This document shows positions 14,243 to 61,368 of a stretch of DNA of 64,000 bases, piece by piece (position 1 is the first letter of the stretch; each line of letters opens with the position of its first letter). The DNA is taken from NCBI GenBank assembly GCA_002070605.1, contig MWDO01000001.1:88886-152885 (forward strand), read 5' to 3'. Below the pieces are notes generated by a model. The model worked only from the letters and a program-made list of their open reading frames with translations. It did no database searches and was not told the DNA's origin. The position numbers and the translations under genes were made by a program. The stretch is from Spirochaetes bacterium ADurb.Bin133 (GTDB lineage: Bacteria; Spirochaetota; GWE2-31-10; MWDO01).

Positions 14243-14300
14243 ACATAATATAATAATTTTATGCGTTCCCGCCGGTTTGTTACGGAAATAAAAAATAATT

Positions 14301-43190: not shown

Positions 43191-43273
43191 ATATTTAAAG
43201 AAAATCCTTGAAATATTTAATATAATCGGTAAATATATATTTTAGATGAGAATATTTCTCTGGGAGGGGAGTT

Positions 43274-44167
43274 TTGTTTAAAGTAAAGTTTTGGGGCGTG
43301 CGAGGGTCTCTGCCTTGTCCCGGACCTACCACCGCAAAATACGGCGGCAATACCGCTTGTATTCAGATTAAATTGGATCAGGATTATCAGATAATTATCG
43401 ACAGCGGAACGGGTATCAGAGAGTTGTCGGCTTCTCTTCTATCCGATCCGGAAGTAAAGAAACCTTTAAAGATTTTTTTGTTTTTAACTCACACTCATTG
43501 GGATCACATTATGGGATTCCCTTTTTTTACGCCGATATACATACCGAACGCGGAACTTACTATCCACGGTCCGGTATCCTTTGAGGACGAGCCGCTTGAA
43601 AAAGTTATCGGAGGGCAGTTGACTTACAGATATTTCCCGATACGCATAGAGGAGCTCAAATCTAAAATCGACTACGTCAGATTAAAAGAGGGGAGTTTAG
43701 ATTTGCCAAACGGAGTAAAGGTCAGTTATAAATTCTTAAATCACCCCATACTGTGTCTTGGGTATAGAATCGAATATGAAAATAAGATCCTGGCTACATG
43801 CTACGATCACGAGCCTTTTGCAAATTTATTTGAAGGGGATCCCGAAAATGAAGAGGAGGGAAAAAACGCAGCTCTTGAGCAGAATTATAGAGTTTCTCAA
43901 TTTTATAAAAACGCCGATCTGTTAATACACGATTCTCAATACTCTACTTCCGAATATAAAAAATATGTAGGCTGGGGACACTCTACATATAAATACGCTA
44001 TAACTCAAGCGCTTAAAGCCAACGTAAAAAATTTGGCGCTGTTTCACCACGACCCAAACAGAACGGACAAACAACTTGATAATATAAAGGAGACGTTTAA
44101 TCCAAAATTCTTAAAATACGGTTTAAACGTATTTCCGGCTTATGAAAAACAAGAGATCGAGCTATGA
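43274..44167 (+). CDS. Metallo-beta-lactamase-fold hydrolase (beta-lactamase superfamily domain 2)
   Basis: A 297-residue cytoplasmic protein with FWGVRGSLPCPGPTTAKYGGN at the start, the metal site THTHWDH (about residues 74-80), LIHDSQYS and GWGHSTYKYA, and a closing LFHHDPNRTD. This is the RNase Z/phosphodiesterase-like branch of the fold, in which some members cleave cyclic phosphates. The start is TTG at 43274 behind GGAGGGGAG. Its stop overlaps the dnaE start by four bases (ATGA). The coupling to dnaE may be incidental. Confidence 0.85.
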   Translation: MFKVKFWGVRGSLPCPGPTTAKYGGNTACIQIKLDQDYQIIIDSGTGIRELSASLLSDPEVKKPLKIFLFLTHTHWDHIMGFPFFTPIYIPNAELTIHGPVSFEDEPLEKVIGGQLTYRYFPIRIEELKSKIDYVRLKEGSLDLPNGVKVSYKFLNHPILCLGYRIEYENKILATCYDHEPFANLFEGDPENEEEGKNAALEQNYRVSQFYKNADLLIHDSQYSTSEYKKYVGWGHSTYKYAITQALKANVKNLALFHHDPNRTDKQLDNIKETFNPKFLKYGLNVFPAYEKQEIEL

Positions 44168-47100: not shown

Positions 47101-47736
47101 ATTCTCGGATTTTATCTTTCAGGCAATCCTCTAGACCCTTTTCTACGGGTAATAAAAAGAACGGCGTCGCACAATACAAAATCTCTAAAAAAGATTAACT
47201 TAGTAGTTGAAGAAAGAAAATACTCCTCTCAAATAAAAGTCTCTTTAGCCGGTATTATTACCGAAATAAACGTTTTTCGCGGCGAAAACAACAAAAAATG
47301 GGCAAAAATAAAAATCGAAGATTTATACGGAGATATAGACGCTTTCGTATATGGGGGGGATAAAGTCGATAATATAATAAATAGTATCGAATTATATAAA
47401 ATTGTCGTAATAAAGGGGGCGTATAGAATGTTACAAAACGGAAACAAATCATTAATTGCAGACTCTATGGAGGATATAGAAAAAACCGTCGAGCGGGATA
47501 TTTCTGAATTTCATATTTACTTAAAAGACAAAAAAGTGGTTGACGACGAATTAATCTCTTTTAAGAATACTCTATTGAGTCTGCACGGAAGTTTATCTCT
47601 ATACTTTCATATTAAGAGTAAAGAGAATAAAGAATATATAGTTTACTCGAGCGATATAAAAGCTCCAAACGATAAAGAATTCTGCAACCAATTTCAATCA
47701 AAGTACGATTTTATCGAAAAAATCAGAGTTCTTTAG
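44164..47736 (+). CDS. dnaE: DNA polymerase III alpha subunit
   Basis: The catalytic subunit of the replicative polymerase, 1190 residues. The N-terminal PHP domain begins FVHLHNHTEYSLLDGM. The polymerase core holds GPGRGSGAGSIVAYSLGI (about residue 365) and the catalytic Asp pair in MPDFDIDF (about 404), with the third acidic residue further on and ALYRPGPM plus the NKSHAAAYA stretch characteristic of the DnaE type rather than PolC. A helix-hairpin-helix region and an OB-fold (ISLAGIITEINVF in slightly different form at about 1025) close the protein. Start is ATG overlapping the preceding MBL gene. Its end overlaps a converging hypothetical gene by 14 bases. Confidence 0.97.
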   Translation: MSKFDFVHLHNHTEYSLLDGMISLDTKEKKDHNLFSALKKHNMNAVAITDHGNMFGAVEFYKRCKERDNKIKPIIGSEFYIAPGSRFDKNPQKSNSHIVLLAKSNEGYKNLIKLSSLSYIEGFYYNPRIDKELLEKYSGGLICLSACIAGEIPKLILEGKIDEAEKKALYYRELFGKDSFFLEMQIHGIREEKIVAKALYQMSIKLQIPLVATNDCHYLEREDAEAHDILLCIGTKNKLSDPKRLKFHGTDFYFKSEEEMYRLFKDIPKSLSNTRVIADMCSVDIKLGNPILPDFEVPQGYSKESYLKELSENGLKKRYRNPDQNLINRLNMEIDVINRMGFAGYFLIVWDFINYAKTNNIWVGPGRGSGAGSIVAYSLGITNIDPIKYDLIFERFLNEKRVSMPDFDIDFCQERRQEVIDYVVRKYTKEKVSQIVTFSKMKAKAVIKDVGRVLDVPLSRVNQITKYITEGKDLKKEIMETPELKEIFYNGTDNEKKLLNSSIKLEKLSRHTSVHAAGVVIGKSAITDFVPLQIVKDKINKGGDIITTQYPGPQLEECGLVKMDFLGLITLTLMRNCIQLLEDKGITLDINNIPLDDQKVFELFAKGDVEAIFQFESQGMKKYLMKLRPNCLEDLIAMNALYRPGPMNQIETYIKRKHLEERVEYDHPLVEPILKETYGIMIYQEQVMKISQVVAGYDLGSADLLRRAMGKKKIDEMLKNKRIFVYGNEEERNKIIEENRQLSLENKKPKEVPPVIPGAIKNGLDEKTATAIFEKMEKFAEYGFNKSHAAAYAYVAYQTAYLKAYYPIEFMASVLNSEVGKPDKLKYYVQSLKELNIELLPPDVNCSQKAFSVEDGKIRYALYGIKGVGESAADNIVRSRREKGKYKDYNDFLRSLDLHIVNKGVLEALILSGALDSLKKSRKFMMETLNDSIKEAIDFQTDKRIGQIALFEEESEENDVAPINDDEWDINEKLKREREILGFYLSGNPLDPFLRVIKRTASHNTKSLKKINLVVEERKYSSQIKVSLAGIITEINVFRGENNKKWAKIKIEDLYGDIDAFVYGGDKVDNIINSIELYKIVVIKGAYRMLQNGNKSLIADSMEDIEKTVERDISEFHIYLKDKKVVDDELISFKNTLLSLHGSLSLYFHIKSKENKEYIVYSSDIKAPNDKEFCNQFQSKYDFIEKIRVL

Positions 47737-48364
47737 CCGCCTGTTCTTTTTTAAGCCGAACAAGATAGCGAAAAGATAAAATCAGGTATCGCAAATATAA
47801 TAAAAACAAAACGGCGACCGTTAAAAGAGCCGGTATAGAGAGAAACAAAACTTTAGAAGTTATCTCTATATTGTTAAATTTTATAAAACCGCAAATTCTA
47901 AAAGTATTAAATAGATAATATGGAAGCGCTATTCCAAACAGTATAATACCGGACAAATTTTTCCATTTCCTTGATAATTCGACGTTTTTAAAATATTTTA
48001 AACCGTTCTCCAATATTTTTGAAATAAAAACCAGAGTTAAAGACATAAGAAAAGGTAAGAAACTCTGAATTTCCTGAAATATCTTATATTTAAACAGAAA
48101 AAATTCAAGCAAATTTAAAACAAATATCAAATATATGAATATTTCTGCGACAAACAGATACACAAACGGGTATATGCGTCTTGATATGATAAGTCCGATC
48201 ATAATAAGAATCGTTCCTATAATTTCAAATCCAAAAATATTCAAGACGTTAAATTCGTCCAATAAAAAATAAGTAACGTATCTGGGTTTTACGACCCAAA
48301 AAATTATCCCTATTAAAATAAGTTTAAACGAATTAATTAATTCGTTCGTCTGATTTTTATCCAT
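47723..48364 (-). CDS. Hypothetical membrane protein
   Basis: A 213-residue protein with about six hydrophobic segments and short loops, ending in a charged tail (VRLKKEQAAKEL). I recognise no family. It faces away from mcsA and overlaps the end of dnaE tail to tail. Confidence 0.7.
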   Translation of the reverse strand: MDKNQTNELINSFKLILIGIIFWVVKPRYVTYFLLDEFNVLNIFGFEIIGTILIMIGLIISRRIYPFVYLFVAEIFIYLIFVLNLLEFFLFKYKIFQEIQSFLPFLMSLTLVFISKILENGLKYFKNVELSRKWKNLSGIILFGIALPYYLFNTFRICGFIKFNNIEITSKVLFLSIPALLTVAVLFLLYLRYLILSFRYLVRLKKEQAAKEL

Positions 48365-48460
48365 TTTGTCTCTCCATAAAACTATTTTAACTTATATCAC
48401 TTTTTTTTTAAATAGTAGACTAATATTTTGTAAAAATTACTGAATTTTATTATAGTTTTA

Positions 48461-48489
48461 TTGCCTTATGAAGTTTTTTTTTGTATTAT
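48461..48489 (+). promoter_or_regulatory. Putative mcsA operon promoter
   Basis: TTGCCT (48461-48466), 17 bases, TATTAT (48484-48489). An alternative TTGTAA/TATAGT pair with 17-base spacing lies just upstream (about 48428-48456). Neither overlaps a recognisable CtsR operator. Tentative in this AT-rich gap. Confidence 0.35.
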
Positions 48490-48527
48490 TAATATGAAAT
48501 TTACTTAATAACTTTGAGGAATATATA

Positions 48528-49076
48528 GTGGTATGCGATTTGTGTAAAAAAGAAGAGGCGATATTTCATTTTCAGGAGAATTCAAAGTCCGGTAGGAGAA
48601 AAATAAATTTATGTATGAATTGCGCCTTAAAAAAAGGGTTCAGTTTTTCCATGTTTCAATTTCAAGATATATTAATAGATTTTTTGTTAAATGTTTTCTC
48701 GCCCGATCAAAACCCCGGACATTCGTTGGGAAACGTAGCGTTTGAAGCGGATATTTGCCCCTCGTGCGGCAGAAGTTTCCATAGCATAGTTGAGACCGGA
48801 GAAGTCGGTTGCTCTATTTGCTATAACGTATATAACGGCTACGTTAGCAATTTTATCTATGCCAAAAATAATTCGCTTAATTATTTGGGCAAATATCCGG
48901 CAAGATACAGAGAGATAACCGTGCATAGAGAGAAATTGTTAGAGTTAAAAAACGAACTAAACGAATCGATTCTTACTCAAGATTTTATGAAAGCGGCTAA
49001 AGTTAGAGATAAAATTAAGGAGATAAAACGGGAATTTAAGTCGACCAGAAGGCAAAAAGGGAGACTTAATGAATAA
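48528..49076 (+). CDS. mcsA: McsA, zinc-binding partner of McsB and ClpC
   Basis: A 182-residue protein with paired zinc-ribbon motifs: CDLC with CMNC near the start (residues about 3-31) and CPSC with CSIC (about 83-106). A UVR domain follows (ELKNELNESILTQDFMKAAKVRDKIKEIKREF, about 139-170), as in UvrB/UvrC and ClpC. In Bacillus, McsA activates the arginine kinase McsB and stabilises it in the heat-shock operon ctsR-mcsA-mcsB-clpC. ctsR is missing here. The start is GTG at 48528, seven bases after GAGGA. The gene overlaps mcsB by eight bases. Confidence 0.93.
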   Translation: MVCDLCKKEEAIFHFQENSKSGRRKINLCMNCALKKGFSFSMFQFQDILIDFLLNVFSPDQNPGHSLGNVAFEADICPSCGRSFHSIVETGEVGCSICYNVYNGYVSNFIYAKNNSLNYLGKYPARYREITVHREKLLELKNELNESILTQDFMKAAKVRDKIKEIKREFKSTRRQKGRLNE

Positions 49077-50100
49077 AGTATTGAAAAATACTGACAGTTT
49101 GCGCATATATTCTCTGCTTTATTCAAAAATCAGACTTGTTCGAAATATCAATAAATATCCTTTTGTAAGTTCTATGAGTAAAGACGAAAAAGATGAAGTT
49201 TACGCTCAACTATTAGATATTTTATCTCGAAACAGTTTAGATTTTTCTCTTTTAAACGATCAAATAAACGATCAAACGGATAACGTTTCAAATATTGATT
49301 TTAACTACGCTCTCTACTTAGCGGACGAAGAGAGAAAAATCGATAAAAATATCGTATTAGTTAATAAATTCAATACCGTTTTAGATATTAACAGAGGCAA
49401 TCACATTGAATTTTATAATTATAGTTTTAAATCCGATTTTTTACATCTGTATAAAAATATAACTACTTTAGAAGAGATCTTTGAAAATTATTTTAATTTT
49501 TACGCGACTAAGAGATTTGGCTTTCTGTCGCCAAAAATTAACGATACGGGTTTGGGATTAAAAGTTTCGACGGTTCTTCATCTGCCGGGTTTTACGGCGC
49601 TCGCAAACCGAAACGCTCTTTTTGAAGATTTTAATAAACGGGGTTATGAGATAAAAGAGTGGAAATTTGAAGGAAAATGTTATAAAAACTTTTACGTAGC
49701 GTCCTCAAATTTAAATTTTGGAGTTAGCGAAGATAAACTGCTGGAGAGATTTCAATTAGGCATAAATTCTATTTTGGATATGGAAAATGTCGAATTATTG
49801 AAATTTTACGACAAGAATAAGGAAGGATTTGTCGATATTATTTTAAGAAGTTACGGAATACTAAGTTACGCGACAAAACTAAAATTTGAAGAAACTATCG
49901 AGTATTTATCCAATATTCTTATAGGATTAAAACTCGGAACGCTCAAAGTTAAAAACTGGAGTTTATTCGATTTAGGGGAGTTGTTTTCCGCTATCCTTAG
50001 TAATAAGCTGTTGTCGGAGTTTAATAAAACGGATAACGACGAGGCGCAAAGAGAAATTATCAAAAAGTTTATTTCAAATATAGGAGCGATCAATGATTAA
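49069..50100 (+). CDS. mcsB: McsB-like guanidino-kinase homologue, catalytic residues apparently lost
   Basis: The position (between mcsA and clpC), the length (343) and several stretches identify McsB: IYSLLYSKIRLVRNINKYPF near the start (usual SSRIRLARNL), ATKRFGFLSP, VSTVLHLPGF, and VDIILRSYGILSYATKL with SNILIGLKLG near the end. In Bacillus McsB phosphorylates arginines on proteins to target them to ClpC/ClpP. Here the family's active-site elements are altered: NEEDHxR-like is NRGNHIEFY (about residue 108), the Cys-Pro-[ST]-Asn-x-Gly-Thr loop reads KINDTGLGLK (about 155, no Cys), and the Arg-Gly-x-x-Gly-Glu loop is KEWKFEGKC (about 195). It therefore looks like a pseudokinase that may act as an adaptor. 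Overlaps clpC by eight bases; the frame is open, so it is not a broken gene. Confidence 0.85.
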   Translation: MNKVLKNTDSLRIYSLLYSKIRLVRNINKYPFVSSMSKDEKDEVYAQLLDILSRNSLDFSLLNDQINDQTDNVSNIDFNYALYLADEERKIDKNIVLVNKFNTVLDINRGNHIEFYNYSFKSDFLHLYKNITTLEEIFENYFNFYATKRFGFLSPKINDTGLGLKVSTVLHLPGFTALANRNALFEDFNKRGYEIKEWKFEGKCYKNFYVASSNLNFGVSEDKLLERFQLGINSILDMENVELLKFYDKNKEGFVDIILRSYGILSYATKLKFEETIEYLSNILIGLKLGTLKVKNWSLFDLGELFSAILSNKLLSEFNKTDNDEAQREIIKKFISNIGAIND

Positions 50101-52570
50101 TAAAGGATTCACCAGCAGAGCTAATAAAATAATAAGATTTCTCGCGCAGGAAGAGGCAAAAAAATTTAACGCCGACAAACTTCTGCCGGAACATATAGTA
50201 TTGGCGATTTTTAGAGAACAGGAAGGAGTCGCCGTTAAAACTTTACAATTACTCGGAGCGGATATTTACGACCTCATACTTGACATTGAAGAGTATCTTG
50301 AAAAAAGAAACGGGCCTATGTATCTCGGAGACGTTATACCGTCTCAAGAGGTTCAAAGAATGATCGATTTGAGCATAGACGAGTCGAAAAACATGGGGTA
50401 TAACTACGTCGGAACGGAACATCTTCTTCTTGCCGCTATGCAGGAGCCGGGGTCTTTTATTGCGCAAATTCTTGAGGAACGCGCCATTACCGCAACAAAA
50501 TTTAGAGAGGGCGTTATCAAAATTATAGGATTTGGGAAGGTTCTTACAAAAAAAGATACCGCTAAAAAAACCCCCCTTCTCGACGATTTCGGCAGAGATC
50601 TGACGCTTTTAGCAAAAAAAGGGAAACTCGACAAAGTTATCGGAAGAGACGTTGAAATAGAGAGAGTTATTCAGATATTATCGAGAAGAACAAAAAACAA
50701 TCCGGTATTAATTGGCGAACCGGGAGTGGGAAAAACCGCTATCGTCGAGGGGCTTGCTCAAAAAATTGTTGAAAACAACGTTCCTGAAACTTTGATAAAC
50801 AAAAGAGTCGTGGTTTTGGATCTCGGACAAATTGTCGCTGGGACAAAGTACCGCGGAGAATTTGAAGATAGAATAAAAAAAATTATGAAAGAGACGACGG
50901 AGGCGTCTAATATTGTCCTTTTTTTAGACGAACTGCACACAATTATTGGAGCCGGCGGCTCTGAAGGGTCTTTAGACGCCTCTAATATGCTAAAACCAGC
51001 GCTTTCGAGAGGAGAATTGCAGTGCATAGGGGCGACGACGCTTAACGAATATAAAAAATACATTGAAAAAGACGCCGCGCTGGAGAGAAGATTTCAACCG
51101 ATAGTCGTAGACGAACCGAACGTTAACGATACTATCTCGATACTTAGGGGCATCAAGAATCTTTACGAAGAACATCATAACGTCGTATACACCGACAAGG
51201 CTTTGGAACTTTCGGCAAAGCTAAGCCATAGATATATTGCCGATCGGTATTTACCCGATAAAGCTATCGATATAATCGACGAAGCGGGTTCGAGAGTAAG
51301 ATTAAAAAACTCTACTAAACCGGTTGAGTTGTATATTATCGATAAAGAGATTGAAGATCTTAACGCTAAGAAGAATAGATTGATAAAAGAGCAACTTTTT
51401 GAAGAGTGCGAAGATATAAAAAATCAGATTGACAGACTAACGCTCGATAAAGAAAATATCATTAACGAGTGGCAAAAGAGCAATATGAGAGACAGATTCA
51501 TAGTAGACGAAGAGGATATATTGGAAGTTTTGTCAATTATAACGAAAATTCCTTTATCAAAAATGGTTGAAAAAGATACTCAAAAATTGTTGAATATTGA
51601 AAACGAACTGCGTAAGCGGGTCGTGGGACAGGACGAACCGATAAAAGTAATAGCCTCGGCAATCAGAAGATCCAGGATGGGGCTTGGTTCAAAAAGAAGA
51701 CCTACCGGTTCGTTTATTTTTCTTGGACCTACCGGGGTTGGAAAAACGGAATTAGCCCGATCTCTTGCTAACTTTTTATTTGGCGACGACGACTCCCTGA
51801 TACGTATAGATATGTCCGATTATATGGAAAAACACAACGTTTCAAGACTCGTGGGGGCTCCTCCCGGATACGTAGGCTATGAAGAGGGGGGCGTATTAAC
51901 GGAAAAAATTAGAAGGAAGCCTTATTCGGTAATACTTCTTGACGAAATTGAAAAAGCGCACCCCGACGTTTTCAATATTTTACTTCAGATTTTGGAAGAG
52001 GGGGAAATTGCCGATAATCTTGGTCATAATATCTCTTTCAGAAATACCATAATAATTATGACAAGCAACGTCGGGGCTCGTCAGATAAACAAAGAGAGCT
52101 CTTTAGGTTTTTTTCAAAATAACGACGGTTCCGAATACAAGGAGATAAAATCCTCCGCGATGAACGAACTAAAAAAATTTTTTAATCCCGAATTTCTTAA
52201 TAGAATAGACGAAACGGTGGTGTTTCGCTCTTTGGCAAAAGAGGATTTGATACAAATAGTCGATATTATGTTTGTTGAAACTAAAAACAATTTAAAAGAG
52301 AAAAATATCGAAATTGAATTAACCGAAGCGGCAAAAAACTTTATCATAGAAAAACGGTACGATAAAAAATATGGAGCCCGTACGCTTAGAAGAGCTATAC
52401 AAACGGATATTTCCGACGCGATATCCTTAGAAATTTTAAACTCGAGGATAAAAGAGGGCGATATTATCGAGATTGGCATTACCGACAACAACCTGACTTT
52501 TATAAAACGCAACGAAGATTTTCAAGATCAGGTCAAGCCTAAGAAAAAAGTAAAGGTTGCCGTTGACTAG
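50093..52570 (+). CDS. clpC: ATP-dependent Clp protease ATPase subunit ClpC
   Basis: An 825-residue double AAA+ unfoldase that feeds substrates to ClpP. The N-terminal repeat domain begins FTSRANKIIRFLAQEEAKKF. The first Walker A is GEPGVGKTAIVEG (about residue 209), with LFLDELHTIIGAG as Walker B. A middle domain with a UVR-like stretch (NRLIKEQLFEECEDIKNQID) is typical of ClpC as opposed to ClpB. The second Walker A is GPTGVGKTELARS (about 546), followed by VGAPPGYVGYEEGG and FFNPEFLNRID. The ClpC N-domain recognises phosphoarginine in Bacillus, so a dead McsB upstream would be surprising. The end overlaps the next gene. clpP is not in the window. Confidence 0.96.
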   Translation: MINKGFTSRANKIIRFLAQEEAKKFNADKLLPEHIVLAIFREQEGVAVKTLQLLGADIYDLILDIEEYLEKRNGPMYLGDVIPSQEVQRMIDLSIDESKNMGYNYVGTEHLLLAAMQEPGSFIAQILEERAITATKFREGVIKIIGFGKVLTKKDTAKKTPLLDDFGRDLTLLAKKGKLDKVIGRDVEIERVIQILSRRTKNNPVLIGEPGVGKTAIVEGLAQKIVENNVPETLINKRVVVLDLGQIVAGTKYRGEFEDRIKKIMKETTEASNIVLFLDELHTIIGAGGSEGSLDASNMLKPALSRGELQCIGATTLNEYKKYIEKDAALERRFQPIVVDEPNVNDTISILRGIKNLYEEHHNVVYTDKALELSAKLSHRYIADRYLPDKAIDIIDEAGSRVRLKNSTKPVELYIIDKEIEDLNAKKNRLIKEQLFEECEDIKNQIDRLTLDKENIINEWQKSNMRDRFIVDEEDILEVLSIITKIPLSKMVEKDTQKLLNIENELRKRVVGQDEPIKVIASAIRRSRMGLGSKRRPTGSFIFLGPTGVGKTELARSLANFLFGDDDSLIRIDMSDYMEKHNVSRLVGAPPGYVGYEEGGVLTEKIRRKPYSVILLDEIEKAHPDVFNILLQILEEGEIADNLGHNISFRNTIIIMTSNVGARQINKESSLGFFQNNDGSEYKEIKSSAMNELKKFFNPEFLNRIDETVVFRSLAKEDLIQIVDIMFVETKNNLKEKNIEIELTEAAKNFIIEKRYDKKYGARTLRRAIQTDISDAISLEILNSRIKEGDIIEIGITDNNLTFIKRNEDFQDQVKPKKKVKVAVD

Positions 52571-55271
52571 ATTATTGTTTATAATCTCGTTTTTAATCGT
52601 CTCCGCCGGCGCTTTTTCTAACGAGCTTCAGGATTTTAATTTATCTTTGTCGTATTATAGAGACGGTTTTTATGAAATTGCCGAAAAGTCTTTTACGGAA
52701 TTTGTAAATAAAAACCCCTCTTCGACTTACAAATCTAAGGCGCTGTATTATCTGTCTTTGTCTCAAATAAAAATTAATAAGATAAAAGAGTCCGTCGGCA
52801 ATTTATCAAAAATATCAAACGACAAAAATTTTGAATACTACAATGAAGCCGCTTACTATCTTATTTTAGGACTGTTCTTAACCGGCGAAAACGCCAAATC
52901 TGAAAGCGCTATAAAAAACCTGAATATCGGCTCGTTTTCAGAAGAGAGAAAGGAGAAAATATTATACGTCTCTATAGTTAATAATATCAACCTCAACAAT
53001 AAAAAAGCGTCGCTTGCAAAATCCAAAACCTATTTCGAAACGACCGGATACGTAAAATACCGCTATGAAATCCAAAAATATCTGCTAAACTATTTTATAA
53101 CGAACGAAGATTATCAAAACGCGGTTCAGATTTTTGAAGCCGCTCTTTTAGAAAATAAATTTCCGGAAACAGACAAAACTCTTCTTTTTTACAATTACGT
53201 TTTATCTCTGTCAAAATTGAATCGTTACGACGAATTAATATATTTCGTTAATAAATACGTAGACTTTTTCGACGACGATATATATAAAATATTTGCCGAC
53301 GCTCTATATGAAACTAAAAAATATAACGAATCTATAAATATACTGAATATTATTCATAAAAACAACGGCAAAGATATGGATATAATAAAAAAAATTGCGG
53401 TCATATATATAGAGCTTAATGATTTATATAAGGCGATAGAGACCGTCGAACCCTATTCCAACAATAACAAAGAGTTTATTCAGATGTTATGCGATTTGTA
53501 CTACAGAATTAATAATCCGGATAAGTGCCGTTACTATCTATCAAAACTGAGTTTCAACGAATTAAACGACGTAAATTTAAGAATTTTCTTTAATATAGCC
53601 AATTACTTTGATAAACAGGACGATATACTGCTTTTTTACGATAATATAGATAAAATCGATAAATTTAACTCAAACGACAGAAATCAGGTCTTATACAAAA
53701 TCGCCGAAGTTCTTTACAACCGCAAGATTTACGATAAATGCGCTTTTATTCTCGACAAATGGCTAAAAGAATTTACCGACGACGTAAACTACGATAAGAT
53801 GTTAATGATGAAGGCGATTACTCTTAAAAACGATAAGCGCTACGAACAGGCGATAATAGAACTATCAAAAATACAAAAATTAAAAAAGAAGGACGCGCTT
53901 TATTACGAAAGTTTTGTCGAACAGGGGGAGCTCTACTTTACGCTGAGAGAATACGGCTCCGCTATAAATTGTTATAACGAATATTTAAATTCTAAAGATT
54001 ATAACGAAAGAAAAAAAGAGGTACTGCTTCAACTTGGAAATTCTTACTACAACATCAAGAATTTTAACAATTCATACAGGACGTACGCCGAATATGCCAA
54101 TATCTACGGATATTCTGAAAATTTATACGTTAAGATCGCTAATTCTCTTATAAAATCCGAGAAATATGCCGAATTATTGAACTATTTCTCCGATAAAACC
54201 GGCATAGGAGATTATTGCCAATATATGATCGTTTATTCTAATTACAAATTAAACAATTACGCAAAAGTCGTTAACTTTAAAGAGATTAATAAAAATTCGG
54301 CTTACCTGTTAGACGCTTTGTATTTATCCGCGCTTAGCAGGGCTCAAAATAGATATTTCGACAATATCGAAGAGGAGTATAACCAAATCAAGCGATATTT
54401 ATCTGAAAAAGATCCGGTTAAATACGATAAAGTTGTCGCTATAAAAAAAGAGTATTTCAAATTATTTGTTAGATTAAATAAAATTTCAAATTTAGACAAT
54501 TTTTTCTCTATTATAAATAGCGATATTATTTATTTTCAAGGATATACGTATGATAAAAATCTCTATTACGACGAGGCAAAGAGGCATTATAATATATTAT
54601 TAAACAACAAGCAATACAAGGAGTTATCCGAAAACGAGCTTAGCGTAATTTTTGATTTTTATAGAAATAATAACGACTTAGATTCCTCTTTACTCGTCGT
54701 AGACGCTTTACTCTCCAAACTTTACCATGAAAAATTTGTAACGGAAAAATTTGACATACTAATAGAAAAAAAAGAGATTAAAGCCGCCTCGGAAATTCTG
54801 AATAATGAAAAAACGAAAGCCTTTAAGGATTATTTTCAAGTATGTATAACGTTTGAAGAAAACGGCAATAAAAATGAGTATAAAAACGGGCTTGTAAAAT
54901 TAATTAATAATAAAAAAATTAATACGTACTTATCAAAACATATACTTTTAAAATACCTCAAATTTGAGTTTAACGACAATAACTACAATACCGTTTTGAA
55001 ATACGTTACAAAAATTTCGGACGAAGAATTTGTGAATTTATCGCCGGAGATCAAATATTTAGAGGGGCTATCGTATTATCAGATCGGAGATGAAAAAAGC
55101 GCCGTACAGCTTTTTTTAAAAATGTTTTATATGTATTCTCAATACTCTTACTGGGTAGAGAAAGCCATAAGGCAGGTCGTCTCTATTTATTCCAAAAACG
55201 GAGAGACGGAGAGAGCAAATAAAGCGATCGAGATGTTTGAGGATAAGTTTTTTAAACTGCGTTCGTTATAA
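52563..55271 (+). CDS. Large exported TPR-repeat protein
   Basis: About 902 residues. The start is taken as TTG at 52563, six bases after AAGG; an in-frame TTG at 52557 would leave no spacing. Residues 1-19 (RLLFIISFLIVSAGAF) form a signal peptide, probably cut before Asn-Glu-Leu. The rest is a succession of helix pairs every 34-37 residues (for example YYLSLSQIKINKIKESVGNL, ALYETKKYNESINILNII and LYFTLREYGSAINCYNEYL), i.e. about 20 degenerate TPR units. Such proteins organise envelope complexes. It overlaps clpC by eight bases, so it is coupled to the mcsA-mcsB-clpC transcript. I do not recognise a specific family. Confidence 0.8.
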   Translation: MTRLLFIISFLIVSAGAFSNELQDFNLSLSYYRDGFYEIAEKSFTEFVNKNPSSTYKSKALYYLSLSQIKINKIKESVGNLSKISNDKNFEYYNEAAYYLILGLFLTGENAKSESAIKNLNIGSFSEERKEKILYVSIVNNINLNNKKASLAKSKTYFETTGYVKYRYEIQKYLLNYFITNEDYQNAVQIFEAALLENKFPETDKTLLFYNYVLSLSKLNRYDELIYFVNKYVDFFDDDIYKIFADALYETKKYNESINILNIIHKNNGKDMDIIKKIAVIYIELNDLYKAIETVEPYSNNNKEFIQMLCDLYYRINNPDKCRYYLSKLSFNELNDVNLRIFFNIANYFDKQDDILLFYDNIDKIDKFNSNDRNQVLYKIAEVLYNRKIYDKCAFILDKWLKEFTDDVNYDKMLMMKAITLKNDKRYEQAIIELSKIQKLKKKDALYYESFVEQGELYFTLREYGSAINCYNEYLNSKDYNERKKEVLLQLGNSYYNIKNFNNSYRTYAEYANIYGYSENLYVKIANSLIKSEKYAELLNYFSDKTGIGDYCQYMIVYSNYKLNNYAKVVNFKEINKNSAYLLDALYLSALSRAQNRYFDNIEEEYNQIKRYLSEKDPVKYDKVVAIKKEYFKLFVRLNKISNLDNFFSIINSDIIYFQGYTYDKNLYYDEAKRHYNILLNNKQYKELSENELSVIFDFYRNNNDLDSSLLVVDALLSKLYHEKFVTEKFDILIEKKEIKAASEILNNEKTKAFKDYFQVCITFEENGNKNEYKNGLVKLINNKKINTYLSKHILLKYLKFEFNDNNYNTVLKYVTKISDEEFVNLSPEIKYLEGLSYYQIGDEKSAVQLFLKMFYMYSQYSYWVEKAIRQVVSIYSKNGETERANKAIEMFEDKFFKLRSL

Positions 55272-56591
55272 CTATTTTTTATTTCTTATCGATTCAATTT
55301 TTTCGATAATACTCTTCAATTTCTTCTCAAAACCGATCTCTTTTGGATTGTAATATTTCCTGCCCGAAAGCTCGTCGGGAAGGCATTTCATAGCGGTAAT
55401 CCCTTCCGGGTAGTCGTGAGCGTATTGATACCCTTCGCCGTAGCCTATCTCTTTCATCAAATTTGTCGGAGCGTTTCTTATATTTAGCGGTATAGATAGA
55501 TCGGGATAGTTTTCTACGTCTTTTTTAGCGGAATTATACGCGGCATATAGCGCGTTGGACTTTGGCGCCAGCGCGTTGTACGCGACGGCTTGGACGATAG
55601 ATAAATTTGCTTCGGGCATACCAAGATGAGAAATCGCCTCTTTTGCCGCGATAGATACTATCAGCGCGTTTGGATCGGCCATACCTACGTCTTCCGAACT
55701 AAATCTTATTACCCGACGAATTATATATAGAGGGTCCTCTCCGGACTCGAGCATTTTTACCGCGTAGTATATCGCCGCGTCGACGTCCGAATTTCGCATA
55801 GATTTGTGAAGAGCCGAAATATAATCGTAATGAAAATCCCCTTTTTTATCGTAATTCGGAAGTCTCCCTTGAACGATCTTCTCTATTAAATCCTTATCAA
55901 TATTTACGGCGTTTTCGTTATTTTTCAGAAATTTTAACGACATCTCGATTATTCCTAAAGATCTTCTGGCGTCTCCCGACGATATGTCGATAATTTTCGA
56001 TTTATTATCTTCGTCGAGCGTTATAAAAATATTCTCGTTATTTTTCAAATACTCTATCGCTCTATCAATTAATAAACCGATATTATCGTCGCTAAGTCTT
56101 TTCAATACGAAAACTCTCATTCTTGAAAGTAACGGAGATACAATTGAAAATGAAGGATTTTCCGTCGTAGCGCCTATTAATATCACCGACCCCTTCTCAA
56201 CGTAAGGAAGAAAAGCGTCTTGTTGAGCTTTGTTAAATCTATGTATCTCGTCGATGAAAATAATCGTCCTAACGCCGCTGTTGAAGAAAACCTCCTCCGC
56301 CTCCTCCATCATCGTTTTGACCTCTTTTATACCCGTAATAACCGCGCTGAAGCTTTTCCAAATGTTTTTGGTGTTTTTTGAAATGACGTTAGCTATAGAC
56401 GTTTTACCGGAGCCGGGAGGTCCCCATAAAATAAACGACGATAAATTGTCCTCTTTTATCATGTTGCTTAAAAGACTATTATCTTTAAACAACTCCTCTT
56501 GACCCAATATGTCATTAATTAATCTCGGTCTCAGCTTTTCGGATAGCGGCATACGCGAATTGTCGTTAAATAGCGAGTTGTTGTCTTTCAT
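55272..56591 (-). CDS. rarA: Replication-associated recombination protein A (RarA/MgsA)
   Basis: A 439-residue AAA+ ATPase that acts at stalled replication forks, related to the clamp-loader subunits and RuvB. Walker A is WGPPGSGKTS (about residue 48-57), Walker B IIFIDEIHRFNKAQQD, followed by ATTENPSF and the arginine-finger region LLSRMRVF. The C-terminal MgsA tetramerisation domain includes RRVIRFSSEDVGMADP and AVAYNALAPKSNALYAAYN. The ATG at 56589-56591 is chosen because GAGGT sits ahead of it; a longer start at 56618 has no binding site and overlaps truA. Confidence 0.94.
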   Translation of the reverse strand: MKDNNSLFNDNSRMPLSEKLRPRLINDILGQEELFKDNSLLSNMIKEDNLSSFILWGPPGSGKTSIANVISKNTKNIWKSFSAVITGIKEVKTMMEEAEEVFFNSGVRTIIFIDEIHRFNKAQQDAFLPYVEKGSVILIGATTENPSFSIVSPLLSRMRVFVLKRLSDDNIGLLIDRAIEYLKNNENIFITLDEDNKSKIIDISSGDARRSLGIIEMSLKFLKNNENAVNIDKDLIEKIVQGRLPNYDKKGDFHYDYISALHKSMRNSDVDAAIYYAVKMLESGEDPLYIIRRVIRFSSEDVGMADPNALIVSIAAKEAISHLGMPEANLSIVQAVAYNALAPKSNALYAAYNSAKKDVENYPDLSIPLNIRNAPTNLMKEIGYGEGYQYAHDYPEGITAMKCLPDELSGRKYYNPKEIGFEKKLKSIIEKIESIRNKK

Positions 56592-56614
56592 ATTTTTACC
56601 TCGAAAAACATAGA

Positions 56615-57361
56615 TCAAACCTTGTTGTAATATACTTTTTTTAAAATTAACCCTTTTGGAGGGTAAGTAACGCCGGCGACTTTTCTCTCTTTTGATTCCA
56701 AAATCTCTTTTATCGTTTCCGGCGAACGGTTTTCTTTATAAAGATCCAAAATAGTTCCTACCATTATCCTGACCATATTTTGTAGAAAGGCGTTGCCAAT
56801 AATCTTACATACTACCAAATTTCCGTTTCTTGTAAAATCAATACTATCGACCCGTCTGATTTTTGTTTTATTTTGATCGCCCGAAGAGCAAAAGGAGGTA
56901 AAATCGTATTCTCCAATCAGATACTTAGCGTATTCGTTTAATCTCTCCGTATCAAGATCGCCCCAATAAATATGCGTATAATACCTCTGATGTAGCGCCG
57001 ATATAGTTTTATCGTTTACAATTTGATACCAATACTCTCTCGCGTAAGCCGTTCTACGGGAATTAAAAGAGTCCGGAACAAATTCGCAGTTATTGATCCT
57101 TATATCTTTTGGAAGCAAAGAGTTCAAGGCTAACAGCCAATTATTCTCCTTCATATTATTGGTCGCATGAAAATTTACCACCTGTCCTTCGGCGTGAACT
57201 CCGGCGTCGGTTCTTCCCGCGCAAATGATTGAAATTCTTTCGCTTTTTAATACGCTAGTTATTCCTTTTTTTAAAAAATCTTCAATCCCGTTTCCATTTT
57301 TTTGCGATTGGAAACCGGAGTAGTCTGTTCCGTCGTAAGAAAGCGTCAATTTGATGTTCAT
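56615..57361 (-). CDS. truA: tRNA pseudouridine synthase A
   Basis: TruA converts U38-U40 in the tRNA anticodon arm to pseudouridine. The catalytic Asp is in AGRTDAGVHAEGQVVNF (about residue 52). FNSRRTAYAREYWYQI, YLIGEYDFTSFCSSG and GNAFLQNMVRIMVGTILDL are the other family motifs in order. Length, 248, is typical. Its start overlaps the end of the DUF2225 gene by four bases, so translation is coupled. Confidence 0.96.
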   Translation of the reverse strand: MNIKLTLSYDGTDYSGFQSQKNGNGIEDFLKKGITSVLKSERISIICAGRTDAGVHAEGQVVNFHATNNMKENNWLLALNSLLPKDIRINNCEFVPDSFNSRRTAYAREYWYQIVNDKTISALHQRYYTHIYWGDLDTERLNEYAKYLIGEYDFTSFCSSGDQNKTKIRRVDSIDFTRNGNLVVCKIIGNAFLQNMVRIMVGTILDLYKENRSPETIKEILESKERKVAGVTYPPKGLILKKVYYNKV

Positions 57362-58221
57362 TGAATCTCTTTCAGCTCGTTTGAGACTATATCGTAGAAA
57401 TCCTTAGATTTTTCAAGAATTTCTTTCGGTTTGTTAATATTTGACTTACCCATGCCAAAAAGTTTGCCAAAATATAATTTTGCTTTTTCCAGATCTTTTT
57501 TTCTTCTTTCAGGATCGCTTTTATCTCCATAATAATACAATAATACTGCGTTCAAATACGTCAAACCGTCGTATCCGTAATCTTTATCAATATCAGGACC
57601 TAAAAATTTCATATTTTCCATAATTTGTTCTTTTTTACGGTTAAGTTCGAAAGCCTGCTCGTACATAAATAGAGCTTTTCGATAAAACAACTCGCTTAAA
57701 TAATCAAAATATCGGTTTGGTTTCTCTTTATTTAGGTCTTCGTATAAAAATGCGGCTCTAATTAGACATATAGCCTGTTTAATAACCGGAAGAAATTTTT
57801 TATTAAAATACTCGTAACACCCCGCCGCTAACGCAAAACTTGCCGCTCCCGATTCAAGAGTCCTGTATTTAGAAAAATCAACCGGCGCTCCGCTAAGTTT
57901 ATTTGCATAATCGATTCTTTCGCTCGTCTGAGATTCGATTTTTTCAATATTTTCGCTCGGAACTTTATCAAAATCCATAGGCATAGCCGCGTAATAACAG
58001 GTCGGACAGACCATAATCGAATAGACCAAAGGATAAATTTTACCAAAATTCGCGCTCGGTTTATAAGTCCTATGCAACTTATCGGTAATATCCCCGGCAA
58101 TCAATCTTCCGCCGCTTGACATAAGCTTCTCATAAAAAAACATCTCTCCGCATATCGGACAAATAATTTTCTCTGTCGGAGTTATAAACGTAATTTTAGG
58201 TCTGATTCTATCGTCGCTCAT
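57358..58221 (-). CDS. DUF2225 family protein
   Basis: A 287-residue cytoplasmic protein with two Cys pairs, CPIC (residues 21-24) and CPTC (about 72-75), which could bind zinc; the second sits in YSIMVCPTCYYAAMPMDF. The C-terminal 150 residues are TPR-like helices (KALFMYEQAFELNRKKEQ, LTYLNAVLLYYYGDK). This matches DUF2225, a family common in spirochaetes and clostridia with no settled function. It precedes truA with overlapping codons and follows pdxJ by 22 bases. Confidence 0.88.
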   Translation of the reverse strand: MSDDRIRPKITFITPTEKIICPICGEMFFYEKLMSSGGRLIAGDITDKLHRTYKPSANFGKIYPLVYSIMVCPTCYYAAMPMDFDKVPSENIEKIESQTSERIDYANKLSGAPVDFSKYRTLESGAASFALAAGCYEYFNKKFLPVIKQAICLIRAAFLYEDLNKEKPNRYFDYLSELFYRKALFMYEQAFELNRKKEQIMENMKFLGPDIDKDYGYDGLTYLNAVLLYYYGDKSDPERRKKDLEKAKLYFGKLFGMGKSNINKPKEILEKSKDFYDIVSNELKEIQ

Positions 58222-58243
58222 ACGCCGTTCCTATTAATTATTT

Positions 58244-58975
58244 TTATACTTTACGTTCGGAGTTTCTTATTAAGGATTTCATGGCGCTTGTCGATTTTGC
58301 AAGACCGACAAAAAGAGCTCGAGCAACTATCGAATACCCGATATTTAACTCTTCAATCCCGTCAATTTTACAAATTTCTTCCACGTTATGGAAGTTGAGT
58401 CCATGACCCGCGCAAACTTTTATCCCCATCTCTTTTACCTTTTTAGAAAACTCTTTTATATCGCTAAGTATTTTGTTTTTTTCCTTAAAGTTTTTCGAAT
58501 TAGCGTAACCTCCGGTGTGTATTTCTACGTCGTCGGGAGCTAACGAACAAATTTTATCGATCAAACTAACGTCGGGTTCGATAAACAAACTTATCAATAT
58601 GCCGTTTCTTTTTAATTCGTCTATATAATCCTTAATCTTATCGAAATTACCCGCAAGATTCAGCCCCCCCTCCGTCGTAATCTCTTCTCTTTTTTCCGGG
58701 ACTAACGTAACCTTAACCGGCTTGGCGGCTAACGCCTTTTCTAAAACGTCCTTATTGCACGCCATCTCTAAGTTGACGTAAGTCGAAACGTTGTTATTCA
58801 ACAAAAACAGATCGTCGTCTCTTATGTGTCTTCGATCTTCTCTTAGATGAATTGTAATAAAATCGCCGCCGTTCTGTTCGATTATCGCCGCCGCCGCCAA
58901 CAAAGACGGAAAAAAATCGCCCCGGGCGTTTCTTAAAGTAGCGATATGGTCTATATTTATCCCAAGTTTTATCAA
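58244..58975 (-). CDS. pdxJ: Pyridoxine 5'-phosphate synthase
   Basis: PdxJ condenses deoxyxylulose phosphate with 3-amino-2-oxopropyl phosphate to pyridoxine phosphate, the deoxyxylulose-dependent B6 route. The 243-residue barrel starts KLGINIDHIATLRNARG and has the phosphate-, substrate- and catalysis-related stretches ITIHLREDRRHI, VNLEMACNKDV, VTLVPEKREEITTEGGLN, ISLFIEPD, VEIHTGGYAN, AGHGLNFHNV and LNIGYSIVARALFVGL. The other pathway genes are not close. It is the first gene of the pdxJ-DUF2225-truA-rarA group. Confidence 0.96.
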   Translation of the reverse strand: MIKLGINIDHIATLRNARGDFFPSLLAAAAIIEQNGGDFITIHLREDRRHIRDDDLFLLNNNVSTYVNLEMACNKDVLEKALAAKPVKVTLVPEKREEITTEGGLNLAGNFDKIKDYIDELKRNGILISLFIEPDVSLIDKICSLAPDDVEIHTGGYANSKNFKEKNKILSDIKEFSKKVKEMGIKVCAGHGLNFHNVEEICKIDGIEELNIGYSIVARALFVGLAKSTSAMKSLIRNSERKV

Positions 58976-59068
58976 AATATTCTCCGGATTTAAAAACGTT
59001 CTCCTTATATAATACCACTATTTATTATTAAATTCAATGATAAATATCTCCGTTATTTTTTTATTTAA

Positions 59069-59190
59069 GACGCCGTCGGTTTTTGGGGAAATTTGACACA
59101 TATGACACCGAAAATAAATTGATACATATGCGTCAAATTTTAAATACGGCGCGCTCCATATGCGTCAAATTTATATCGGGGAGCGGCGCG
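59069..59190. repeat. Intergenic palindromic element 5 (left arm beside hicA)
   Basis: Begins CGCCGTCGGTTTTTGGGG (59071-59088), the family end sequence, and has TTGACACATATG (from 59093), TTGATACATATGCGTCAA (from 59119, a near-perfect palindrome), CATATGCGTCAA (59157-59168) and the GC-rich linker GGGGAGCGGCGCGACG (59178-59193). The last part touches the 3' end of hicA. A matching inverted end is not found here but 780 bases on, beyond hicB (element 6). Confidence 0.8.
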
Positions 59191-59193
59191 ACG

Positions 59194-59418
59194 TTATAAT
59201 TTAATAAAATTACTAGGATTAATATTCGCTTGTTTTAAAATAGCTTTTAATGTTCCTTCAGACATATCTTTATTATGTCTTGGTATAGTAGTAAATCTCA
59301 TGGTATTTTTATTATACCATATTTCATGACTTCCTTCGGCTTGTCGGTAAAGTTCAAAACCGCATTTTTTAAGATTGTTTATAATTTCTTTATATTTATA
59401 ACCTGATAATCTACTCAT
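59194..59418 (-). CDS. hicA: HicA-type mRNA interferase toxin
   Basis: A 74-residue HicA (YcfA) protein with a double-stranded RNA-binding-like fold. The family pattern is clear: GYKYKEIINNLKKCGFELYRQAEGSHEIWYN, with the catalytic His in GSHEIW (about residue 30), then TTIPRHNKDMSEGTLKAILKQANI. HicA cleaves mRNA and is held inactive by HicB. The start lies one base after hicB, so the pair is one operon in the antitoxin-first order. The 3' end abuts a repeat element. Confidence 0.93.
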   Translation of the reverse strand: MSRLSGYKYKEIINNLKKCGFELYRQAEGSHEIWYNKNTMRFTTIPRHNKDMSEGTLKAILKQANINPSNFIKL

Positions 59419-59419
59419 A

Positions 59420-59644
59420 TTACATGCTTACAATAAGCGGAAGATCAAATTTTTCGTCAACAAAGGGTATATTTTTTTTAATATTTGATTGGGCTTCAAG
59501 TAATTTCTCGGCTACGTCCTTCGCTATTTTTAACAACTCAGATACCGTATCGGCTTGAACAACTAATCCCTGAATATCGTCGGACGTTCCAAGATAACAA
59601 CCTTCGGGTAATTTTTCAACATGTAATAAAATTTTTTTTTCCAT
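59420..59644 (-). CDS. hicB: HicB-type antitoxin
   Basis: A 74-residue HicB-like protein: a partial RNase H fold with VEKLPEGCYLGTSDDIQGLVVQADTVSELLKIAKDVAEKLLE, the part that blocks HicA. The ATG at 59642-59644, with AGGA upstream, is preferred to one 39 bases earlier. It lacks the C-terminal helix-turn-helix or ribbon-helix-helix seen in many HicB proteins, so autoregulation, if any, must use another mechanism or another protein. Confidence 0.88.
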   Translation of the reverse strand: MEKKILLHVEKLPEGCYLGTSDDIQGLVVQADTVSELLKIAKDVAEKLLEAQSNIKKNIPFVDEKFDLPLIVSM

Positions 59645-59769
59645 GATTGTTCCTAAAGTCTTGATGTTTGAAATATAATGCAATAATTTAAGAAAATCAA
59701 TAATATTTTTTAATTACCCGTCGCCCCTCGATTTTGCGCCCAAATTTTTCGACAGGCTCAGAATGACAA

Positions 59770-59886
59770 GTCGAGGAGCGGCGCGGCGCATGCAGTTCCA
59801 TATGTGTCAATTTTTTATCAGGGATCGCCGCGGCGAGTATAGCTCCATGTGTGTCATTTTTCTTTTCCCCCAAAAAACCGGCGTGG
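59770..59886. repeat. Intergenic palindromic element 6 (right arm beside hicB)
   Basis: The 290-base gap upstream of the ATPase gene is largely this element, in the opposite orientation to element 5. It has the linker CGAGGAGCGGCGCGGCGCA (from 59772), CATATGTGTCAA (from 59799), a second linker GGATCGCCGCGGCGAG, CATGTGTGTCAT (from 59846) and the end CCCCCAAAAAACCGGCG (59867-59883). A leading stretch TTCGACAGGCTCAGAATGACA (59748-59768) is outside the usual unit. Read on the minus strand, it matches two units of the array at 42949-43190. Confidence 0.8.
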
Positions 59887-59909: not shown

Positions 59910-59938
59910 TTGACAAAAAGAGTTGTTTCAACTATACT
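59910..59938 (+). promoter_or_regulatory. Strong promoter of the AAA_14 ATPase gene
   Basis: TTGACA (59910-59915), 17-base spacer, TATACT (59933-59938): close to a perfect sigma-70 promoter, 36 bases before the ATG. Its -10 box lies inside an 18-base palindrome. Confidence 0.75.
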
Positions 59939-59943
59939 TGAAA
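59926..59943. promoter_or_regulatory. Operator-like palindrome over the -10 box
   Basis: TTTCAACTATACTTGAAA is an inverted repeat with arms TTTCAA/TTGAAA and a shared core. It covers the -10 hexamer, so a bound protein would block RNA polymerase. A second copy lies exactly 40 bases downstream. Confidence 0.65.
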
Positions 59944-59965
59944 TTATGTGGATAAAATCACGAGG

Positions 59966-59983
59966 TTTCAAGTATGGTTGAAA
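59966..59983. promoter_or_regulatory. Operator-like palindrome over the start codon
   Basis: TTTCAAGTATGGTTGAAA has the same arms as the upstream copy (centre to centre 40 bases, about four helical turns). It covers the ATG at 59974-59976. The two copies are also inverse to each other with one mismatch, so the mRNA leader could form a hairpin that hides the start. Confidence 0.65.
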
Positions 59984-61236
59984 TAATTGCAAAACATAAC
60001 TTTTGGAATAACGAAGAGATTAATACCGGATTTATAAGAGAGCGCTATCAATCTAAAATTATCTCTTATCTCGATAACTCTTTAGTAAAGGTCTTAGTTG
60101 GACAGAGAAGGGTAGGTAAGAGCTATATTATGAGAATGCTCATTGATTATCTTTTGAAGACAAGAGATATTAGTCCGAAAAATATACTCTATATAAATAA
60201 AGAGATATATGATTTTGATTTCATTAATACGGCTCAGTCTCTTGATAATATCGTAAAAACTTATACCGAAACTATAAATCCGACGGGGAAAATATACATT
60301 TTTATAGATGAAATACAAGAGATTGCAGGTTGGGAAAAGGTAGTAAATTCGCTATCGCAAGATTATTTGAAAAAGTATGAAATATTTATATCCGGATCAA
60401 ACTCTAATCTCTTATCAAAAGAGTTAGCCACTTATTTAAGCGGAAGATATATACAATTTGAAATCTTACCGTTTTCTTATAAAGAGTATCTTGATTATTA
60501 TAAATTAGATAATACAAAGTCAAATTTTCTTGAATATTTAAAAAATGGCGGAATGCCTGAAACATTACGTCTATCCGGGAACGAATTAATAAGAAATTAT
60601 CTTGAACAACTTCTTAATTCAATTATTTTAAAGGATATAGTAACCCGATATAATATAAGAGACGCCGCGCTGCTTGAGCGACTCGTTTTTTATATTATAG
60701 ATTCATCCGGTTCTCTTTTTTCGGTAAATAGAATTGTTAATTATTTTAATTCTCATAAGATAAAAACTAACAATGAAACCGTTGGGAATTATTTAAAATT
60801 TATAGAGGATACTTTTTTCATACACAGTCTTGAAAGATATGATATCAAGGGGAAAAGTATATTAGCGTCGGATAAAAAATATTACCTCAACGATACGGGA
60901 TTTAAATTCTATTTGACCTCGTCTTTTAATATGAATATTGGTCGATTTCTTGAAAATCTTGTTTATCTGCATCTCAGAAGATTTCATTATCGGATATTTA
61001 TTGGAAAAATTGCTGAAAATGAAATTGATTTTATCGCAGAAAAGGATGGCAATAAAAAATATATTCAGGTAACATATCTTCTTTCTGATGAATCGATAAT
61101 TAAAAGGGAATTTGGCAATCTTTCGTTGATAAATGATAATTACGAAAAAATAGTTTTGTCTTTAGACGACGTTGAAATGGGTAACCTAAATGGAATAAAA
61201 CATATGAAAATCTGGGAATTTCTATTTTCAATGTAA
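59974..61236 (+). CDS. AAA_14/DUF4143 ATPase
   Basis: A 420-residue protein of the widespread AAA_14 plus DUF4143 family. Walker A is GQRRVGKSY (about residues 43-51), Walker B IYIFIDEIQEI (about 107-117), with the ISGSNSNLL sensor stretch and LSGRYIQFEILPFSYKEYL after it. A middle part (LLERLVFYIIDSSGSLFSVNRIVNYF and TVGNYLKFIEDTFFIHSLERYD) reads as a winged-helix unit, and the DUF4143 part ends in a nuclease-like NEIDFIAEKDG motif. Their role is uncertain; many sit in variable, mobile or toxin-antitoxin-rich regions. The gene stands with hicBA between repeat elements. Its own promoter carries paired palindromes, so it may be self-regulated. Confidence 0.9.
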   Translation: MVEIIAKHNFWNNEEINTGFIRERYQSKIISYLDNSLVKVLVGQRRVGKSYIMRMLIDYLLKTRDISPKNILYINKEIYDFDFINTAQSLDNIVKTYTETINPTGKIYIFIDEIQEIAGWEKVVNSLSQDYLKKYEIFISGSNSNLLSKELATYLSGRYIQFEILPFSYKEYLDYYKLDNTKSNFLEYLKNGGMPETLRLSGNELIRNYLEQLLNSIILKDIVTRYNIRDAALLERLVFYIIDSSGSLFSVNRIVNYFNSHKIKTNNETVGNYLKFIEDTFFIHSLERYDIKGKSILASDKKYYLNDTGFKFYLTSSFNMNIGRFLENLVYLHLRRFHYRIFIGKIAENEIDFIAEKDGNKKYIQVTYLLSDESIIKREFGNLSLINDNYEKIVLSLDDVEMGNLNGIKHMKIWEFLFSM

Positions 61237-61275: not shown

Positions 61276-61368
61276 TTTTTGTACCCCGTCGGTTTTTATC
61301 GAGGAGCGCCGCGACGCATATGCGTCGAATTTTCTTTTCCCCCCAAAAAAACCGACAGGGTACAAAAA
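61276..61368. repeat. Intergenic palindromic element 7: compact copy with 22-base terminal inverted repeats
   Basis: The best-preserved short copy. The left end at 61276-61297 (ending CCCCGTCGGTTTTT) and the right end at 61347-61368 (AAAAACCGACAGGGTAC and As) are inverse over 22 bases with one mismatch. Between them are ATCGAGGAGCGCCG and a perfect 16-base palindrome CGACGCATATGCGTCG (61312-61327). The whole could fold into one hairpin. It lies 40 bases after the ATPase stop; the remaining 200 bases to yajC show nothing further that I can name. Confidence 0.88.

Follow-up and report, generated by a model that had tools for sequence, protein, structure and literature searches.

A hicBA toxin-antitoxin (TA) pair in the window, by which we mean the whole 64,000-nt stretch of DNA that was analysed, lies between two arms of a multicopy repeat family. 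We consider it probable that hicBA is a self-contained module in an intergenic island of this family, that the two arms (E5 and E6) are one-ended copies or halves joined by a 15.9-kb inversion, and that TA modules generally survive between direct repeats that delete what lies between them. The features of the locus are as follows.

59069 to 59193, plus strand: E5, the left end of a repeat element with boxes in the order ++--; it ends within a 47-nt repeat unit and is without a right end
59176 to 59193, plus strand: left copy of an 18-bp direct repeat derived from the unit, flanking hicBA
59194 to 59418, minus strand: hicA toxin gene, 74 aa (Pfam HicA_toxin, 4.8e-20)
59420 to 59644, minus strand: hicB-like antitoxin gene, 74 aa, upstream of hicA (Pfam DUF1902, 1.5e-6; PHROG HicB-like, 0.0017, a weak match)
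59672 to 59700, minus strand: promoter-like site of hicBA, TTGATT-17-TATATT, a consensus match only, within the module and outside both arms
59770 to 59886, plus strand: E6, a repeat unit with boxes in the order -- and a right end, without a left end
59771 to 59788, plus strand: right copy of the 18-bp direct repeat, matching the left copy at 89%
59974 to 61236, plus strand: AAA_14/DUF4143 ATPase gene (Pfam, 6.6e-33 and 1.5e-15), absent from the corresponding junctions of the sister genome G001
61276 to 61368, plus strand: E7, a short two-ended element in the interval between the ATPase gene and yajC

The HicA toxin adjoins a HicB-like antitoxin, as in type II HicBA systems, and the pair is probably active. 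As the preliminary description had it, E5 carries a left end (CGCCGTCGGTTTTTGGGG at 59069) and E6 the inverted right end (CCCCCAAAAAACCGGCG at 59886), these outer ends being inverted copies of each other (I13). In neither arm could we recognise a second end, and hicA does end flush with the repeat, its stop codon starting at 59194, the base directly after the end of the repeat unit at 59193. The boxes of the arms had been taken to point in opposite directions, which was a misreading: because their order is ++-- in E5 and -- in E6, the boxes that face hicBA from its two sides point the same way. Only the outer ends of the arms are inverted, and the inner repeats are direct. The minus strand of E5, downstream of hicA, gave a hairpin fold (z, -3.75). 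Just upstream of the AAA_14/DUF4143 gene, a 21-nt inverted repeat (90%) at 59923-59986 lies beside a strong promoter-like match. Within the window, no Rfam match at gathering score was found (attC was sought), and repeats were otherwise read by eye.

The repeat family is a transposable element: its ends are inverted, its target duplications are 9 bp long, and its interior is a minisatellite of 26- to 48-nt box units. In the genome of the window (G000), we counted 1,238 boxes (TGACRCATATG), compared with 0 for the reversed pattern used as a control; there are 65 in G001, the one other genome of the genus that was searched, and 0 to 3 in nine other genomes. The inverted end (CGTCRGTTTTTTGGGG, at most 1 mismatch) was found 320 times in G000 and 0 times in the control, and the inverted-end sequence of the family is about GTAATCCGTCAGTTTTTTGGGG. 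In the 716 kb sampled, 60 of 175 spacings between same-strand boxes were 46 to 48 nt, and a second peak lay at 26 to 27 nt. For target duplications, we compared the 9-mers flanking 59 two-ended elements with those of mismatched element pairs. The flanks matched at 8 or more of the 9 bases in 22 of the 59 (compared with 2.1% of mismatched pairs) and perfectly in 16 (compared with 0.1%). Terminal inverted repeats on the short copies and a target duplication of fixed length (9 bp) are the marks of a miniature inverted-repeat element (MITE). Three members of the family in the window, apart from those at the hicBA locus and the inversion junctions, are listed here.

7009 to 7183, plus strand: E1, boxes and two ends, partly decayed
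10220 to 10412, plus strand: E2, boxes and a right end
14266 to 14975, minus strand: a gene-bearing family member, with an unclassified 171-aa gene at 14301-14816

The ends of IS66 begin with GTAA, and its duplications are 8 bp long. We considered IS66 as the parent element and rejected it, as the duplications here are 9 bp rather than 8 bp and the genome has no Pfam IS66 transposase. The box 16-mer gave 13 single matches in viral contigs. A 19-mer of the family matched one contig in the genome-contig collection, MWCQ01000044.1 (L093), in which a long array of family box units (1996-3160) follows a gene resembling malQ; this contig belongs to a MAG labelled Firmicutes bacterium ADurb.Bin193 and is possibly misbinned. 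We also saw a CRISPR-like array at L052:16636-19961, in which GGTTTGATCTTTGATTTTGATATGG occurs 15 times at intervals that are mostly 65-66 bp.

The family exists both as short copies and as copies carrying the 171-aa gene, which was also seen in the sampled stretches L052, L050, L124, L127, and L130. Nine sampled copies encode the full-length protein, with 916 synonymous and 471 nonsynonymous single changes. Across 60 genomes, G000 had 59 matches to the protein, two of them with a stop, and G001 had 12, seven of them with a stop; G005 had 4 weak matches, and the remaining 57 genomes had none. Among 19 copies of the gene (a table in which two rows, L171/L127_12581 and L190/W_14301, are duplicates, that is, copies seen twice), the left end was recognisable by pattern upstream in 15 and the right end downstream in 9, and boxes were present upstream in all but one. 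A box lay about 125 bp upstream of the gene in most copies checked. The protein matched no Pfam, NCBIfam, or PHROG family and had no relatives in viral contigs, and its predicted structure was unusable (pLDDT, 39; pTM, 0.27). As a gene-bearing element whose protein falls outside three family libraries, this is a mobile element of an unclassified kind.

In structure, the family resembles BrickBuilt, a MITE of Porphyromonas gingivalis with 23-nt units and 19 copies (PMC4596501); the likeness is structural and implies no kinship. Both are inverted-repeat elements with an internal tandem minisatellite, many intergenic copies, and a restricted host range. Unlike BrickBuilt, the family described here has units of ~26-48 nt, >1,000 boxes, gene-bearing copies, 9-bp duplications, and TA modules between its copies. 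The 23-nt tandem unit that BrickBuilt has between its inverted leader and tail was not what we found, as same-strand spacings of 46-48 and 26-27 nt dominate.

The preliminary description had offered, as its simplest reading, a single element of about 815 bases with hicBA as its cargo, or else two elements that jointly move or recombine the pair. We examined 150 box clusters in the 716 kb sampled: 35 had a left end only, 41 a right end only, 49 neither, and 25 both, so that one-ended copies (76/150) are half of the repeat family. A cluster with only a left end was followed within 3 kb by one with only a right end in 5 of 61 neighbouring pairs, compared with 3.9 expected from independent ends. 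The bracket around hicBA is a chance-level arrangement and not special. The preliminary description also suggested looking for direct repeats just outside 59069 and 59886. The flanks of E5 and E6 match at 6 of 9 bases, and because about a third of mismatched pairs (~33%) reach that level, there is no sign of a target duplication common to the two arms, although this is a weak test in that old elements can lose their duplications. Elsewhere in the genome there is no second copy of hicBA (the next-nearest HicA is 46% identical), and we found neither further copies nor a pair of empty and filled sites, the G001 site being rearranged and not simply empty.

On these grounds we think it rather improbable that hicBA entered an existing element and moves, or once moved, as cargo between its inverted ends, although several features would suit such a composite. 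The left arm has only a left end and the right arm only a right end, all four boxes nearest hicBA have the same direction, and both arms keep the phase of the 47-nt unit; merging the 18-bp repeats would give a box spacing of 47 nt, comparable with the 46 to 48 nt so common in the family. A similar second bracket surrounds two modules at L042:2760-4290, and gene-bearing family members exist. Against this stand the chance-level frequency of brackets, the flanks of E5 and E6, the single copy of hicBA, and the position of the site at an inversion junction. Although the arms exist, hicBA is not made mobile by them; we take the locus to be a recombination junction with a self-contained hicBA next to it. 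The junction involves the following features.

43184 to 59063, no strand assigned: 15.9-kb block inverted relative to the sister genome G001, with both breakpoints at repeat elements
42953 to 43184, plus strand: E4, a box array with a left end, which fills the other inversion junction, between gpmI and a metallo-hydrolase gene

The comparison with a sister was made with one genome, G001, which is 86% complete, and G000 and G001 are both draft assemblies (103 and 490 contigs, respectively). At the first G001 junction, the counterpart of window positions 54883-59063 is followed by 230 nt and then by 42939-42600 inverted; at the second, 61659-61367 inverted is followed by 64 nt and then by 43184-52859. 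This order at both junctions shows that the two genomes carry the block 43184-59063 in opposite orientations. In the window, one junction is filled by E4 and the other by E5, hicBA, E6, the AAA_14/DUF4143 gene, and E7; none of these is present at the G001 junctions, which have no boxes. Relatives with hicBA and no arms had been named as speaking against the preliminary description; since the G001 junctions are without hicBA and without arms, this one relative is not such a case. The earlier suggestion that elements recombine around the TA pair gained from the comparison, as synteny with G001 breaks exactly at the elements, and from the strong association of modules with the family described below.

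E4 and E6 share units in inverted orientation (42 nt at 88% and 35 nt at 89%), which is what inversion by recombination between them needs, and we infer that the elements caused the inversion. Recombination between element arrays would have inverted the 15.9-kb block and brought E5 and E6 face to face, so that E5 and E6 would be two one-ended copies or two halves and not the ends of a hicBA transposon. E5 and E4 were also tried as the two ends of a single insertion (flanks, 8/9), and this was rejected, the control pair E4/E6 being equally good. On the polarity of the inversion, gpmI or yajC was beside the metallo-hydrolase gene in 0 of 7 outgroup loci (L157-L163). It is highly improbable that the rearrangement is an assembly artefact at repeats. 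The draft state of both genomes and the contigs that end in arrays would allow for one, but the arrays at the junction have ~42 bp at 88% in common, which is short for misjoining, and the absence of boxes from the G001 junctions does not favour it.

TA modules in G000 are concentrated between elements of the family. The enrichment test covered two toxin families genome-wide, HicA (7 matches) and ParE (12 matches), with mechanical ORFs of contig C1 as gene proxies. Boxes were present on both sides within 850 bp in 11 of the 19 HicA/ParE matches, compared with 5 of 138 gene proxies (Fisher p, ~1e-8), and an exact box was present on at least one side within 850 bp in 17/19 and 37/138, respectively. 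For random 250-bp stretches, the values were 2.9% for both sides and 17.6% for at least one side. In an intergenic-matched control (genes flanked on each side by an intergenic gap of 100 bp or more), boxes in both gaps were found for 1 of 19 genes (p, 0.001 compared with the modules). Only 2 of the 19 HicA/ParE matches had no box within 1,200 bp. The gaps between neighbouring clusters contain HEPN/MNT, HicB, ParE, RelB-like, and DUF433/DUF5615 proteins, as well as HipA, PIN, Phd/YefM, addiction-module, and AbiEii proteins. At L139 (C45:5000-23833), we saw a run of several different TA modules separated by repeat elements.

We also compared gaps with and without modules across all sampled stretches for direct repeats, scoring the flanks of 20 module gaps and 41 others in direct and inverted orientation and ranking them against cross-locus comparisons. 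The module list was compiled by hand, with Pfam support for most; the modules at L122:9061 and L041:16839 have no Pfam match, and these and the HEPN/MNT remnant of L042 were assigned by eye, while L126, L137, L139, and L140 had been sampled partly for their toxin matches. Locus-matched direct repeats (top tenth) flanked 14 of the 20 module gaps and 5 of the 41 others (Fisher, 1e-5), and direct similarity of the flanks exceeded inverted similarity in 17/20 and 23/41, respectively (Fisher, 0.04). The hicBA of the window is a weak case of such a direct repeat (score, 43 direct and 29 inverted; rank, 0.24). At L051:15769-18534, hipBA lies between 359-bp direct copies of the whole element that are 99.7% identical, and the downstream copy, which has a perfect 9-bp duplication, lies within the final codons of hipA and provides the stop codon of that gene.

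These results hint that modules and repeats influence each other's survival. Homologous recombination between directly repeated elements would keep deleting dispensable DNA in between, and TA modules would resist deletion because losing them is toxic; modules may thus accumulate between direct repeats and be shuffled together with them. We infer both the recombination pathway and the selective cause, and the idea builds on published proposals for module-stabilised superintegrons (parts of PMC5543033). Survivorship most simply explains the enrichment and the direct repeats together. Its main rival, because elements also insert beside resident modules, is passive accumulation, in which permissive intergenic islands receive both modules and repeats without any interaction between the two. 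Both kinds of DNA are dispensable and lie between genes, elements occupy 16 of the 52 intergenic gaps on contig C1 that measure 100 bp or more, and at hipBA an intact element has clearly inserted beside a resident module. Passive accumulation, however, does not predict locus-matched direct repeats around modules alone, and we regard it as possible but on the unlikely side.

Modules also recur in the sister genome. Four G000 modules align to G001 at 90 to 93% over 252 to 577 bp. In the loci compared, nothing else of at least 120 bp aligns around three of them, and the fourth, the HicB of L041, has no aligned neighbour beside its G001 counterpart; the exception is a tandem-repeat gene common to L041 and L087, belonging to two different modules. 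The HicB-like gene at L041:16462-16686 is 90% identical to the HicB of a G001 HicAB pair and has a box 18 bp away, and no hicA was seen beside it. There are no boxes at 10 G001 module loci, so that modules do not need the box family.

A second, palindromic repeat, TTTTAGTATATTCAAAACGGGAATTCCCG (also given as ATATTCAAAACGGGAA; palindrome sequence, GACRCATATGYGTC), flanks TA modules in both genomes.

L198, L199, L200, L201, and L203 (G001), and L042, L075, L090, and others (G000): palindromic repeat TTTTAGTATATTCAAAACGGGAATTCCCG at modules

Three G001 modules lie between two direct copies of this repeat 653-828 bp apart, and another two are accompanied by a single copy on the 3' side. Allowing no more than 1 mismatch, we counted 9 copies in 70.6 kb of G001 module contigs, which were chosen for their modules, compared with 0 in 125 kb of other G001 stretches. 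Of 32 copies sampled in G000, 29 have a box no more than 150 bp away and 11 have a listed module no more than 400 bp away; no copy was found near the hicBA of the window. A third repeat (CTTGTCCTACGCGGACAG...GGGCGAAACGCCCTTGACCCG) was seen at L087:1960-2170 and L092:1170-1230, where it forms the 5' side of a common ParE module in both genomes. The modules might be gene cassettes of an integron-like site-specific system, with the palindromic repeat and the box arrays as recombination sites. The arrangement of the palindromic repeat at the five G001 modules, its frequency in module contigs, and the four modules that match without aligning surroundings would agree with this, but the integron consensus core, sought by eye, was not seen, the distance and orientation between module and repeat vary, and the palindromic repeat does not accompany hicBA. 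We judge such a system quite improbable.

Vibrio superintegrons hold many TA modules, as cassettes, among repeated sites, and the modules have been proposed to stabilise the array against loss (PMC5543033; PMC8191803, which cites Szekeres 2007). The many modules among repeated sites in G000 are similar, whereas here the repeats are a transposable element, the modules are scattered over the chromosome, and no attC site was identified in the window. In pneumococcus, a BOX element upstream of yefM-yoeB supplies a promoter (passages of PMC6162744). There too, a short repeat element stands beside a chromosomal TA operon, but hicBA has its own promoter-like site (a consensus match) outside the arms. 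The Correia elements of Neisseria are abundant small inverted-repeat elements for which inversion of the element is reported (PMC10969869, in part); here it is a 15.9-kb block between elements that is inverted. The nearest known kinds are minisatellite-bearing MITEs (PMC4596501) and integron TA cassettes. A literature search by title and abstract opening found no description of TA modules between such elements.

A wider picture, tentative and in our view doubtful, is that of a chromosome-wide landscape of TA cassettes without an integron. Direct transposable repeats (box arrays and the palindromic repeat) would bound modules and shuffle them between positions and between sister species, the toxicity of deletion would give mutual protection, and the family would be spread by an undescribed mobile element whose sole gene encodes the new 171-aa protein. 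The bracket itself, at an inversion junction, is of ordinary frequency; what deserves follow-up is the repeat family and its association with TA modules. The debate over whether chromosomal TA modules anchor DNA against deletion has drawn mainly on integrons and islands. Here, unrelated modules (HicBA, ParE, RelB-like, PIN-domain, HEPN/MNT, HipBA, and AbiE) lie between direct transposable repeats, which offers many cases for strain comparison.
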